The notes under the pieces were generated by a model that was given only the letters and a program-made list of their open reading frames with translations, was not told where the DNA came from and searched no databases. From Clostridia bacterium (lineage in GTDB: Bacteria > Bacillota > Clostridia > Oscillospirales > CAG-382): a stretch of 51,201 nt of DNA. Positions 12,956 through 48,741 of the stretch are shown one piece after another (position 1 is the stretch's first letter; every line of letters starts with the position of its first letter). Position numbers and translations under genes: made by a program. The DNA lies in NCBI GenBank assembly GCA_017625615.1, contig JAGAKP010000022.1, positions 1 through 51,201 of the forward strand, written 5' to 3'.

Positions 12956-13550
12956 TTACTGTGTATCCTCTCCCGAAATCCATCGGGCGGGGTTGTTGTT
13001 TATATAATTCAAAGCGCCGATACGGTCGTTTTCGTCCCGTATCACGTGGTCGTGAAATGAACGCTGGAATATTTTTTCACCGATATCGCGATGAACAAAA
13101 CGTTTAAACGTGGATACAAATTTCGAAACAGTCGAGTTTGCACCGTTATCATTGGTACAGCACTCACCCGTAGGGACGGGCGTCCCCGACCGTCCGCTTT
13201 CGTCATCCGGTATTTGTAATAATAAATGTATATGGTTGGGCATTATAACGTATTTTATTACGTTGATATTACTGTAAAAATCATTTAATTGGTTTATATA
13301 TTTATCCGCAATTTTTCCGTATTTTGTCAGTATTATTTGCGGGACGACGGGGACGTCGTCCCCTACGGTTTGCGAGACGCCGACAGTTATTTTCGATAAT
13401 ATCTGCTTCATATCCTTTACGCAGACAGTTATCATATATTCGCCGGGGTGGCTACCGGGGTTCCCCGCAAAACCGCAGGTTTTGTGGGGTGGTTTAATCC
13501 TGTTTGTCCCAGCGGATGGTTTTTCTTTTGGGAAGATTATCGTTAGACAT
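12956..13550 (-). pseudogene. REP-associated Y1 transposase (RAYT) copy 1, disrupted by H40
   Basis: Homologous to the copy at 20947-21534. The native start at 13550 reads MSNDNLPKRKTIRWDKQD and then hits TAA, because 40 bp have been inserted at 13455-13494. After the insert the frame resumes at SHPGEYMITV and runs to 12956. It includes the HUH motif (MPNHIHLLLQ) and a likely catalytic Tyr in NYINNNP. An N-terminally shortened protein could start at the ATG at 13435 (159 residues), but the first strand of the nuclease fold would be lost. Two CGTAGGGG palindromes lie in frame (13168-13196 and 13341-13368). The element sits between two genes of the ABC module. Confidence 0.85.
13455..13494. mobile_element. 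H40 hairpin element inserted in RAYT copy 1
   Basis: Exactly 40 bp with CCACCCC-a-CAAAACC / GGTTTTG-CGGGG arms and a CCCCGG end. Comparison with the intact copy at 21476 shows GGTGGCTGTAGTCC there and GGTGGCTA-[40 bp]-TAATCC here, so the empty site is clear. Confidence 0.85.
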
Positions 13551-13664
13551 ATCATTAAACGAAAAATTACAATTGATTTTTGCAATGCCTTGCAAAAATC
13601 TTCCGAAATTCCTCATTCCTCATTTCTCGTTTCTCGTTTCTCGTTTCTCGTTCCTCATTTCTCC
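13551..13664. repeat. Heptamer-hairpin island 5
   Basis: Class I hairpin GATTTTTGCAA-TGCC-TTGCAAAAATC (13575-13600), CTTCCGAAA, then about nine TTYCTCR heptamers. It lies upstream of the transposase start and downstream of DUF1854. Confidence 0.8.
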
Positions 13665-17938: not shown

Positions 17939-18078
17939 TGAGAAATGAGTAAACCACCCCAAGAAACCTTTGGTTTCTCGGGGACCCCGGAATGAGGAAT
18001 TGTGGTAGCTTTTTTCGCGTTATACGCGAAAAAAGGTTTCCATACTTTTTCACTATTAACTCTTAACTTTTACCTTTT
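17933..18078. repeat. Heptamer-hairpin island 6 with H40
   Basis: The hom stop lies in heptamers. H40 variant CCACCCC-a-AGAAACC/GGTTTCT-CGGGG-ACCCCGG (17954-17990), heptamer AATGAGG, GTGGTAG, class I hairpin CTTTTTTCGCG-TTATA... CGCGAAAAAAG (18009-18034), GTTTCCATA, and TTMACTY heptamers. Confidence 0.85.
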
Positions 18079-20858: not shown

Positions 20859-20992
20859 ATGAGAAATGAGAAATGAGGAATTATGGTTGCTTTTTGCACG
20901 GCGGTGCAAAAAGCTTCCATACCTTTTAACTATTCACTTTTCACTCTTAACTTTTTTCGGGGTCCCCGCAAAACCTTGGTTTTGTGGGGTGA
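20857..20992. repeat. Heptamer-hairpin island 7 with H40
   Basis: AATGAGA heptamers, ATTATGGTT, class I hairpin GCTTTTTGCAC-GGCG-GTGCAAAAAGC (20889-20914), CTTCCATACC, TTMACTY heptamers, then H40 (20958-20992), which runs into the 3' end of RAYT copy 2. Confidence 0.85.
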
Positions 20993-21534
20993 ATTTTACT
21001 TTTTGTCCATTCTGTCGGATTATTTTCCATATAATTAACAGCGCCCAAAAAATCGTTTTCGTCCCGTATCACGTGATCGTGGTAGGAACGCTGAAATATT
21101 TTTTCACCGATATCGCGATGAACAAAACGTTTAAACGTGGATACAAATTTCGAAACAGTCGAGTTTGCACCGTTATCATTGGTACAGCACTCACCCGTAG
21201 GGACGGGCGTCCCCGACCGTCCGCTTTCGTCATCGGGTATCTGCAATAATAAATGTATGTGATTGGGCATTATCACGTATTTTATTACGTTGATATTACT
21301 GTAAAAATCATTTAATTGGTTTATATATTTATCCGCAATTTTTCCGTAATGCGTTAATTGAATATACGGACGGTCGAGGACGCCCGTCCCTACGGTTTGC
21401 GGGTTGACGGTTATCCTCGATAATATCTGCTTCATATCCTTTGTACAGACGGTTATCATATATTCACCGGGGTGGCTGTAGTCCTGCTTATCCCAGCGGA
21501 TGTTTTTTCTTTTTGGAAGATTTTCTTTATTCAT
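20947..21534 (-). CDS. REP-associated Y1 transposase (RAYT) copy 2
   Basis: 195 residues, IS200-like single-strand transposase of the REP-associated type. N-terminus MNKENLPKRKNIRWDKQDYSHPGEYMITV, HUH motif MPNHIHLLLQ, helix FVSTFKRFVHRDIGEKIFQRSYHDHVI, candidate catalytic Tyr in NYMENNP. Such enzymes cut and join single-stranded hairpin DNA. Two CGTAGGGG palindromes are translated in frame (21195-21223 as part of SGRSGTPVPTGE, and 21368-21395). The last about 14 residues (HPTKPRFCGDPEKS) are encoded by an H40 element and end in a TAA supplied by a heptamer, so the native C-terminus has been replaced. There is no strong ribosome site before 21534. Activity is uncertain. Confidence 0.85.
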   Translation of the reverse strand: MNKENLPKRKNIRWDKQDYSHPGEYMITVCTKDMKQILSRITVNPQTVGTGVLDRPYIQLTHYGKIADKYINQLNDFYSNINVIKYVIMPNHIHLLLQIPDDESGRSGTPVPTGECCTNDNGANSTVSKFVSTFKRFVHRDIGEKIFQRSYHDHVIRDENDFLGAVNYMENNPTEWTKSKIHPTKPRFCGDPEKS

Positions 21535-24174: not shown

Positions 24175-24912
24175 ATGAAGGCTTTAATACTTGCAGGCGG
24201 AAAGGGAAAACGTCTGGGCAGCGATATAACACATATTCCCAAGGTAATGAGAAAAGCAAACGGAAAGCCGTTGATACAGTACGTCCTTGATTATACCGAC
24301 CATATAAAGGTATCCGACAAGGTCATTCTCGTGGGATACGAAAAGCAGGTGGTGATGGATGCGTTCCCCCAATACCCCTTCGCCGTTCAGGCAGAGCAAA
24401 AGGGAACGGGCCACGCGGTTATGTGCGCCGCAGACCATTTTAAGGGATACGAGGGAAATATTCTCGTAATAAACGGCGATATGCCCCTTCTCCGCAAGGA
24501 AAGCGTGCTGGCGCTTGAAAAGGCACACGCGGAAAGCGGAAACGCCTGCACCATACTCTCCTTCGTTATAAAGGGGGATATCCCTCCCTTCGGTCACATC
24601 ACCCGCGACGAAAAGGGTAACGTAACGGGAATAGTTGAGCACAAGGACGCAACCGACGAGCAAAAGCAGATACGTGAGCTTAACGGCGGAATATATATGT
24701 TTGACAGCGTTTCGCTCTTCGACACCCTCTCACGCATAACTCCCAGCCCCGTAACGGGTGAATATTACCTCACCGACGTGCCCAAGCTGATGATAAAAAG
24801 CGGGCTTAAGGTGGACGCATTTATCCTTGAGGACGAAAAGGAGCTTGCGGGAGTAAATACCGAGGAAGACCTTGAAGAAGTGGAAAGAATACTTAAAACG
24901 AGGAACGAGTAA
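24175..24912 (+). CDS. GlmU-like sugar-phosphate nucleotidyltransferase
   Basis: 245 residues, one nucleotidyltransferase domain. LAGGKGKRLGSD is the nucleotide loop, IPKVMRKANGKPLIQYVLD follows, then AEQKGTGHAVMCAADHF (the uridine-binding QxGTGHA motif of GlmU-type enzymes), INGDMPLL (metal Asp) and ELNGGIYMF. GlmU's C-terminal left-handed helix acetyltransferase is absent, so a stand-alone UDP-HexNAc or related pyrophosphorylase is likely; the sugar cannot be fixed. It ends in KTRNE, whose last codons and stop (ACGAGGAACGAGTAA) are heptamer sequence. Confidence 0.88.
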   Translation: MKALILAGGKGKRLGSDITHIPKVMRKANGKPLIQYVLDYTDHIKVSDKVILVGYEKQVVMDAFPQYPFAVQAEQKGTGHAVMCAADHFKGYEGNILVINGDMPLLRKESVLALEKAHAESGNACTILSFVIKGDIPPFGHITRDEKGNVTGIVEHKDATDEQKQIRELNGGIYMFDSVSLFDTLSRITPSPVTGEYYLTDVPKLMIKSGLKVDAFILEDEKELAGVNTEEDLEEVERILKTRNE

Positions 24913-25046
24913 CCCACCCCACAAAACCGCAGGTTTTGCGGGGACCCCGGAACGATGAACGAGGAATTATGGTTGCTTTTTGCACGGCGGTGCAAAAAGC
25001 TTCCATACCTTTTAACTTTTCACTTTTCACTCTTAACTTTTACCTT
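24897..25046. repeat. Heptamer-hairpin island 10 with H40
   Basis: Heptamers supply the upstream stop. H40 CCACCCC-A-CAAAACC/GGTTTTG-CGGGG-ACCCCGG (24914-24950), ACGATGA heptamers, ATTATGGTT, class I hairpin GCTTTTTGCAC-GGCG-GTGCAAAAAGC (24975-25000, identical to island 7), CTTCCATACC, TTMACTY heptamers. Confidence 0.85.
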
Positions 25047-41082: not shown

Positions 41083-41709
41083 ATGCTTTCACCACGATTA
41101 CAAGCCGTTGCAAATCTTATCGACCATACCGATTCCGTCATCGATATCGGCACGGACCACGGATATCTTCCTATATATCTGCTGCTTGCGGGAAAAGCTA
41201 AAGACGCCGCGGCGGCGGATATAAAAAAAGGTCCTCTCGACAACGCAAGGGAAAATATATCCCTTTACGGGGTGGAGATAAAGACCTGCCTTTCCGACGG
41301 GTTTAAGCAAGTGTCCGAAAAATACCACACCGCCTGCATTTGCGGTATGGGGGGAGAGACCATTGCCTCCGTTATAGCCGACGGAAAGGATATTACACCC
41401 GATACCCTTATACTCCAGCCCATGACGGGCGCGGAAAAATTAAGAAAATATCTGTTTGAAAACGGATACGGTATAGAAACCGAGGTTTTCGTAACCGAGG
41501 GAACGAAGGTGTACTGTATTATAAAAGCGTGTAAAACGGGGAAAAATACCCCATATACGTACGCTGACCTGTATTTGGGAAAAATACGCCCCGAAACCGA
41601 GGAATATAAAAAATGGAAACAAAAGATCCGCCTGCAGGCAGAAAAGCGTATGCTGGGCGGAAGGAATGACGGAGATATAGAACTGATTAAAATATGTAAT
41701 GAGAAATGA
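41083..41709 (+). CDS. trmK: tRNA (adenine(22)-N(1))-methyltransferase
   Basis: 208 residues. SAM-dependent Rossmann fold: RLQAVANLIDHTDSVIDIGTDHGYLPIYLL (motif I with the family's DIGTDHGYLP), AADIKKGPLDNARENI, then ICGMGGETIASVI and LILQPMTGAEKLRKYLF, all typical TrmK/YqfN motifs. It methylates A22 in some tRNAs. GGAG precedes ATG 41083. The last codons NEK and stop are from heptamers. Confidence 0.94.
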   Translation: MLSPRLQAVANLIDHTDSVIDIGTDHGYLPIYLLLAGKAKDAAAADIKKGPLDNARENISLYGVEIKTCLSDGFKQVSEKYHTACICGMGGETIASVIADGKDITPDTLILQPMTGAEKLRKYLFENGYGIETEVFVTEGTKVYCIIKACKTGKNTPYTYADLYLGKIRPETEEYKKWKQKIRLQAEKRMLGGRNDGDIELIKICNEK

Positions 41710-41820
41710 GGAATGCGACGCGGCGCGAACGCACCGCTAAATGAGGAATTTCGGAAGATTTTTGTTCCGTGATACAAAAATCAACCATAATTTCTCATTC
41801 ATCATTCATCATTTCTCATT
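41700..41820. repeat. Heptamer-hairpin island 19 with TTTAGC insert
   Basis: AATGAGA heptamers in the trmK end, inverted insert AATGCGACGC-GGCGCGAACGCACC-GCTAAA (41713-41741), heptamer, TTTCGGAA, class I hairpin GATTTTTGT...ACAAAAATC (41757-41782, the only one with an unpaired inner stem), AACCATAA, TTCATCA heptamers. Confidence 0.85.
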
Positions 41821-45689: not shown

Positions 45690-46360
45690 TATATCTCGTT
45701 GACCTTTTGTTCGTAGGTAACTATATTTCCGTGCCCTTTGAGGGACAGATGATATACTTTTTGCTTTGTATGGTATGCGGTTATCTGCTGGGCAGTATCA
45801 ACACCGCCATTATAGTGAGCAAGAAAAAGTACGGCAAGGATATAAGAAACTTCGGCTCCGGCAACGCGGGACTTACCAATATGAAGCGCGTTTACGGCTG
45901 GGGCGCGGCAGGCTATACGCTCCTCGGTGACGTGGGCAAGCAGATCGCCGCGGTGGCGATAGGTATGTTCCTCGGTCACGTGCCGGGCGCATATATTGCG
46001 GGTCTGTTCTGCATTATAGGACATATCCTCCCCTGCTGGTACGGCTTCAAGGGCGGAAAAGGCGTCCTTACAGCCGCTACGCTTATTCTCCTGCTTGACC
46101 CTATGGTGTTTGCCATACTTTTAATAATCTGGCTTGCGGTAATGCTTCTTACCAGATACGTTTCCCTTGCTTCCATCGTAGCCGCATTTGCATATCCCGC
46201 CGCTATCTACGCGCGTTATCAGGGAAAAGACCCCTTCTCGCTGATATTTGCAATAGTTATCGGCCTGTTCGTGATATTTATGCACAGAAGCAATATTAAG
46301 AGATTGTTCAATAACCAAGAGAGCAAGTTTACGTTTAAAAATAAGAACAACAAAAAATAA
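45686..46360 (+). CDS. plsY: Acyl-phosphate:glycerol-3-phosphate acyltransferase
   Basis: 224 residues. Polytopic enzyme making lysophosphatidate from acyl-phosphate. Motifs GYLLGSINTAIIVSK, FGSGNAGLTNMKRVYG (GSGNxGxTN), LLGDVGKQ and WYGFKGGKGV all present. It has about 20 extra N-terminal residues and a longer basic tail than usual. der-plsY is a conserved pair. The tail ends in NKNNKK just before an island. Confidence 0.94.
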   Translation: MIYLVDLLFVGNYISVPFEGQMIYFLLCMVCGYLLGSINTAIIVSKKKYGKDIRNFGSGNAGLTNMKRVYGWGAAGYTLLGDVGKQIAAVAIGMFLGHVPGAYIAGLFCIIGHILPCWYGFKGGKGVLTAATLILLLDPMVFAILLIIWLAVMLLTRYVSLASIVAAFAYPAAIYARYQGKDPFSLIFAIVIGLFVIFMHRSNIKRLFNNQESKFTFKNKNNKK

Positions 46361-46490
46361 ATGAGAAATGAGGAATGCGACGCGGCGCGAACGCACCGCT
46401 AAATGAGGAATTTCGGAAGATTTTTGTTCGCAGAACAAAAATCAACCATCATTTCTCATTCATCATTCCTCATTCATCATTCACATACAG
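46360..46490. repeat. Heptamer-hairpin island 21 with TTTAGC insert
   Basis: AATGAGA heptamers at the plsY stop, insert AATGCGACGC-GGCGCGAACGCACC-GCTAAA (46373-46402, same as island 19), TTTCGGAA, class I hairpin GATTTTTGTTC-GCA-GAACAAAAATC (46419-46443), AACCATCA, TTTCTCA/TTCATCA heptamers. Confidence 0.85.
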
Positions 46491-48672: not shown

Positions 48673-48741
48673 TGAGAAATGAGAAATGAGTAAACCACCC
48701 CAAGAAACCTTTGGTTTCTCGGGGACCCCGGAATGAGAAAC
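48672..48741. repeat. Heptamer-H40 island 23
   Basis: AATGAGA/AATGAGT heptamers from the nusB stop, H40 variant CCACCCC-a-AGAAACC/GGTTTCT-CGGGG-ACCCCGG (48695-48731, same as island 6), one heptamer. No class I hairpin. Confidence 0.85.

Follow-up and report, generated by a model that had tools for sequence, protein, structure and literature searches.

Two RAYT-like genes and a 40-bp insert

The window (the whole 51,201-bp stretch of DNA that was analysed, part of genome G000) contains two RAYT-like genes on the minus strand. Copy 1 (12959..13550) is interrupted after codon 18, and copy 2 (20950..21534) encodes 195 aa and is intact at the insertion site. The host gene has both features used to recognize a RAYT, an HUH-type motif (HIH in MPNHIHLLL) and a match to the family profile, NCBIfam REP_Tyr_transpos (E 4.8e-14), which at 52.5 bits lies under the curated cut-off of 80 bits. 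The best PDB match is 4er8 TnpAREP (E 0.02). Between the copies, dN is 0.094 and dS 0.363, so the genes were under purifying selection. About 140 bp (13067-13207) are identical in both copies and the rest is clearly more diverged, probably through gene conversion. A RAYT is absent from the orthologous intergenic region of copy 1 in four sister species (three read completely, one ended by a contig end) and from the orthologous site of copy 2 in the two sisters where it was readable. Either RAYT gain at both sites was lineage-specific, or several losses occurred.

Copy 1 is interrupted by a hairpin element, H40, on the plus strand at 13455..13494. It is the 40-mer CCGGGGTTCCCCGCAAAACCGCAGGTTTTGTGGGGTGGTT, exact to the base, with the tag CCGGGGTT, a 12-bp stem (13463-13474 / 13478-13489), the loop GCA, and the tail TGGTT. 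An earlier note on this DNA had reported 40 extra bp here, and its coordinates and sequence match exactly. Its uninterrupted copy 2 was also recovered, with GGTGGCTGTAGTCC at 21471-21484, as was its stop after residue 18 of copy 1, where the native minus-strand frame reads MSNDNLPKRKTIRWDKQD and then ends. The insert breaks the frame (40 = 3n+1). Without the 40 bp, copy 1 reads MSNDNLPKRKTIRWDKQDYSHPGEYMITVC... and is open to its natural stop; no additional stop lies 3′ of the insert, where the frame is open. Copy 1 is probably a dead gene. This is put no higher than probable because a 209-aa TTG ORF (12956-13585, minus strand) passes across H40 into the RAYT frame, and some product is possible.

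Of 63 family genomes searched with the RAYT-like protein, 21 contained homologues. When more than 20 homologues were aligned, every one that covers the region had an intact [DN]YxxxGxYFITICT motif (DYSxxGxYFITICT, with small variations). Removal of the insert restores the full frame, and more than 20 relatives, copy 2 included, lack it; this comparison shows the 40 bp to be a derived gain. The converse, named in the earlier note as what would refute its reading, is that the 40 bp are an ancestral part of the gene that copy 2 lost. No support for it was found, and it was rejected as most improbable, since family homologues are uninterrupted at this N-terminal motif and excision of the 40 bp restores the frame exactly.

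The H40 family and its islands

Pattern matching located 38 H40s in the genome that contains the window, which has about 40 copies in all, and the counts for four sister genomes were 23, 13, 19, and 7. A reversed-pattern control gave 0 matches in the window's genome against these 38, and three other species carry the exact 40-mer at 7 sites, so the copy-1 40-mer is not a chance match. A structure scan of fetched loci, which required GGGG in the tag, gave 113 H40 copies with 52 distinct cores. The core architecture is CGGGGT(T)-CCCC...stem...GGGG-TG, with a 12-bp stem and a loop of 2-5 nt. Given that requirement, the tag is CGGGGT or CGGGGTT in 52/52 distinct cores. Pairing in these cores is 96-100% at every stem pair except the fifth, and the stem covaries: pairs 10 and 11 each occur as four pair types, and pairs 6 and 7 vary on both sides. 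Pair 5 is non-Watson-Crick in 47/52 (G.T, A.A, A.C, or G.G), which makes the palindrome imperfect and strand-asymmetric. The predicted DNA folding energy is -11.7 kcal/mol for the top strand versus -9.5 kcal/mol for the bottom. An Rfam scan of the window returned one tRNA as its sole match, and a known RNA family was rejected for H40 on that scan. Phage carriage was rejected too, with no exact match to the H40 pattern in 2.9 million viral contigs.

By its anatomy, H40 is a REP-like single hairpin with a GGGGT tag, a palindrome with a conserved stem and short loop in the 20-40 bp range of REPs. The GTAG and CGTC classes of REPs, their tags, in-gene copies, and RAYT overlap were described by Di Nocera 2013 (PMC3733652), and GTAG-24 REPs have 12-13 bp stems with a fifth-position mismatch (PMC3733652). 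REPs associated with RAYT/TnpAREP share with H40 a short imperfect palindrome, an unpaired 5′ tag, a short loop, and tens of copies that are mostly intergenic, with intragenic, in-frame, and RAYT-overlapping ones too. Their tag is GTAG or CGTC, whereas that of H40 is GGGG(T), neither of the two. H40 also clusters head-to-tail, an arrangement rare in GTAG families, and unlike REPs it has no consistent RAYT partner and cleanly disrupts a RAYT gene.

Other family members in the window were compared with the copy-1 unit, from which their stems differ by paired changes. Those at 17952..17990 (33/40 identical columns), 24911..24950 (38/42), and 48693..48731 (33/40) are on the minus strand in heptamer islands. 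The one at 20957..20990 (plus strand, 34/41) overlaps the 3′ end of RAYT copy 2, where it is in frame as HPTKPRFCGDPE near the stop. The earlier note had placed the same 40-bp unit alone in islands 6, 7, 10, and 23; this holds for the family but not for the exact unit, with 33-38 identical positions. No second exact 40-mer was found in G000, so the donor is not seen there.

Many intergenic regions hold islands in which (AAYGAGR) heptamers surround a GATTTTTG...CAAAAATC hairpin. Island content is quite different in the orthologous intergenic regions of sister species. Two islands share an exact 70-bp duplicate (41698-41767 = 46360-46429) spanning heptamers and the start of the hairpin. Small dispersed repeats in cyanobacteria, attributed to Elhai 2008, reportedly insert into heptamer tandem repeats and other repeats. 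They resemble H40 as very short units in heptamer arrays and differ from it in sequence and host phylum.

Borders, orientation, and landing site

The copy-1 40-mer is exact at 7 further sites in three sister species (G001, G003, and G004). All seven are flanked by AACCATT and AGTTCAT, and the RAYT copy 1 insert by GGCTA and TAATCC. The two unrelated contexts agree in these 40 bp and differ on either side, so the borders are fixed independently. Whole islands were perhaps copied, in which case the seven island copies would not all be separate insertions. A 36-nt H40 core with other flanks sits in the loops of GTAG-type REPs. Filled and empty sites, which the earlier note had proposed to look for, were found among sisters that are other species of the genus: the orthologous intergenic region of 17952-17990 is empty in G002, G003, and G004, and G001 has an H40 in the opposite arm. 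These sites, and the identical 40-mer in differing flanks across species, bear out the earlier view that H40 moves as a discrete unit. Locus L021 carries, after 1535, an array of 3′ half-units, (GTTTTGTGGGGTGT)n, beside a full H40; it is orthologous to a filled site in L086.

The copy-1 subtype of H40 is the dominant one in sister species, and the exact 40-mer, unique in G000, is common in G001, G003, and G004. The window's own genome (77 contigs) appears to be a MAG, and the named sister genomes are MAGs. An assembly artefact or strain chimera would fit these points. It is nevertheless very unlikely, given that both flanks belong to G000, with about 77-79% identity to all sisters, and that the surrounding RAYT copy is G000-specific at the locus.

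The unit that entered copy 1 was a lone, unpaired H40. In the REPIN model, an inverted REP doublet is the mobile unit and singlets are immobile remnants (Bertels and Rainey 2011, PMC3116915). REPINs, like H40, are non-autonomous hairpins with a conceptual tie to Y1 transposases, and excision intermediates have been proposed for them. They are inverted doublets with singlets held defunct, whereas H40 inserted singly. An inverted CACCCC within 20 nt occurs at 0/113 H40s and the arrays are head-to-tail, so at that spacing H40s do not form REPINs.

All H40s with clear heptamer flanks (43/43) lie on one strand relative to TTCCTCGTT. Within heptamer arrays, this shared orientation could come partly from amplification of whole islands. 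The earlier note had included TA in the target, which does not generalize: TA is found in copy 1 only. Other junctions read CATT^...^AGTT, CGTTC^...^CTCG, and GACGG^...^CAGGCG, and left flanks vary (GGCTA, CCATT, CGTTC, GACGG, TTTAT, and others). Comparison of borders across H40 sites gave no common TA or other target duplication, and a general TA target was rejected on these junctions. A DDE MITE with TA duplication was also rejected, TA being confined to copy 1 and the ends CCGGGG / GGTGGTT not being inverted repeats. IS200/IS605 MITE-like elements are recognized as hairpins on one strand and insert in a specific orientation without target duplication, and they share these features with H40. 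Unlike them, H40 has no fixed target tetranucleotide at its left flank, which differs between sites. An IS608-like mode, in which a CC cleavage site would be reused at the left end, was rejected because CC is missing from the insertion point in the empty RAYT site.

The host gene carries CCGGGGTGG at 13443..13451 (plus strand, HPGE codons), a mimic of the H40 right end with the insertion point 3 nt downstream. This 9-bp sequence is present in copy 2 (21467, same codons) and in G003, and nowhere in the 51-kb window besides the two RAYT copies. In head-to-tail H40 arrays, the distance from GGGGTG to the next core is mostly 4-6 nt, and in copy 1 it is 5, so the mimic stands before the insert at the spacing shown by the arrays. 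About 0.004 upstream GGGGTG motifs are expected per site; the argument is post hoc and rests on one gene insertion. Upstream GGGGTG is missing at most H40s outside arrays, and the end mimic is therefore not a general target.

The 9 bp in the target match both ends of H40, a feature that would also be produced by replication slippage or template switching at GC-rich microhomology: on reaching the host CCGGGGTGG, the growing strand would have jumped to an H40 at another site, copied a single unit there, and returned. Head-to-tail arrays with a period of 40-49 and arrays of truncated 3′ half-units are in keeping with such an event. However, the junctions do not coincide with the shared GGGGTGG but lie beyond it, by 3 nt and 2 nt, and the target CTA is kept, which simple homology does not predict, and the identical 40-mer borders in unrelated flanks and the strict orientation suggest defined ends. 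Template switching is rated as rather unlikely.

A candidate mechanism and its enzyme

To our knowledge, it is not yet settled how REP-like repeats move, and few single hairpins are known with clean filled and empty sites. In the copy-1 event, the unit, borders, strand, landing site, and polarity are all readable. The event is relevant to two questions: which unit is mobile, the single hairpin or the inverted pair, and whether RAYTs move REP-like repeats. H40 works like a REP, has a tag outside the named superfamilies, and inserted as a singlet.

On balance, H40 is probably a tiny REP-like mobile hairpin with a GGGG tag that inserts beside GGGGTGG by a strand-specific single-strand reaction, the RAYT being a candidate and not a proven mobiliser. 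The top-strand hairpin would be recognized through the GGGGT tag and the weak fifth pair. H40 would then be cut a few nt after GGGGTGG, perhaps forming a circle of 40 nt, before being joined to a target likewise bearing GGGGTGG. The enzyme can be proposed in kind only, as HUH/Y1-like. TnpAREP recognizes the tag and an irregular stem, and the tag steers cleavage (GTGG to CC) (PMC8266576). A REP-like single-strand mechanism is favoured, and the RAYT is named as its enzyme without confidence. For in vitro testing, both partners are defined: H40 as a 40-nt substrate and the RAYT site as its target.

The earlier note held the RAYT to be the gene likely to mobilise H40, which stays unproven in view of H40-rich genomes without a detectable RAYT and many RAYT genomes without H40. 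Mobilisation in trans, with H40 as one REP substrate and one gene copy struck by its own cargo, is possible but doubtful. H40 has a REP-like anatomy and lies in 3/3 close RAYT genes of the genus (copy 1 at codon 18, copy 2 at the 3′ end, G003 in frame at about residue 70), where about 0.03 would be expected if H40s were uniform and 0.24 if they were confined to an eighth of the genome. Such a role is harder to reconcile with G001, G037, the unrelated Dormiibacter, and an Anaerolineae MAG, in which H40 is present and no RAYT was found, or with G054, G056, G036, and G008, which all have close RAYTs and no H40. The H40 tag GGGG also differs from that of the GTAG-type REPs conserved in the RAYT ORF. 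GTAG families have a partner RAYT gene flanked by the repeats; three close RAYTs hold an H40 internally or at one end, and several H40 genomes lack a RAYT.

G001 is 95% complete, with 23 H40 copies and no RAYT found. NCBIfam REP_Tyr_transpos and Pfam Y1_Tnp gave nothing significant in the H40-bearing G001, G004, and G037, and a direct protein search gave a weak 47-aa RAYT fragment in G004. RAYTs may be hidden in MAG gaps. Another Y1_Tnp as mobiliser was rejected, none being above the cut-off in H40 genomes.

Within the family, H40 occurs in all five genomes of the genus and in G013 and G037, and most RAYT-bearing members lack it. A sample of 390 other genomes from the class yielded no H40 of this type. 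Similarly designed hairpins, in arrays with a period of 40-42, were found in a Desulfarculus MAG (19), Dormiibacter (9), and Dethiosulfatarculus (8). Loci L106, L109, L114, and L116, from other phyla, carry GGGGTCCCC...GGGGTG hairpins in head-to-tail arrays with a period of 40-42 bp; Rfam gave no match for those of L106 and L109. The cross-phylum likeness is possibly convergence on a GC-rich design. A more speculative and improbable proposal is that H40 is the first member of a class of mobile single hairpins that are tagged with GGGG, span several phyla, insert beside copies of their own GGGGTGG right end, and are driven by non-RAYT machinery. If true, GGGGTGG-adjacent insertion would lead to head-to-tail array growth and to occasional gene strikes at mimics.

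RAYT ORFs across the family (the window copies, L129, L130, L131, L132, and L096) contain in-frame GTAG-type REPs at the same two positions, VGxGVLDxP forward and SRTPSPT inverted. The RAYT gene thus appears to have its own substrate built into its coding sequence, and these internal REPs look to be likelier substrates of the RAYT than H40. In the G003 orthologue (G003:C11, L096 260-936), H40 is in frame as HPTKPAVLQGTP, nested beside GTAG REPs, and the ORF is open. Rickettsia palindromic elements (RPE) likewise lie within reading frames, sometimes in frame (PMC3733652). They resemble the in-frame H40s in the G003 RAYT and at the end of copy 2, and unlike in-frame RPE, the copy-1 H40 disrupts the frame.
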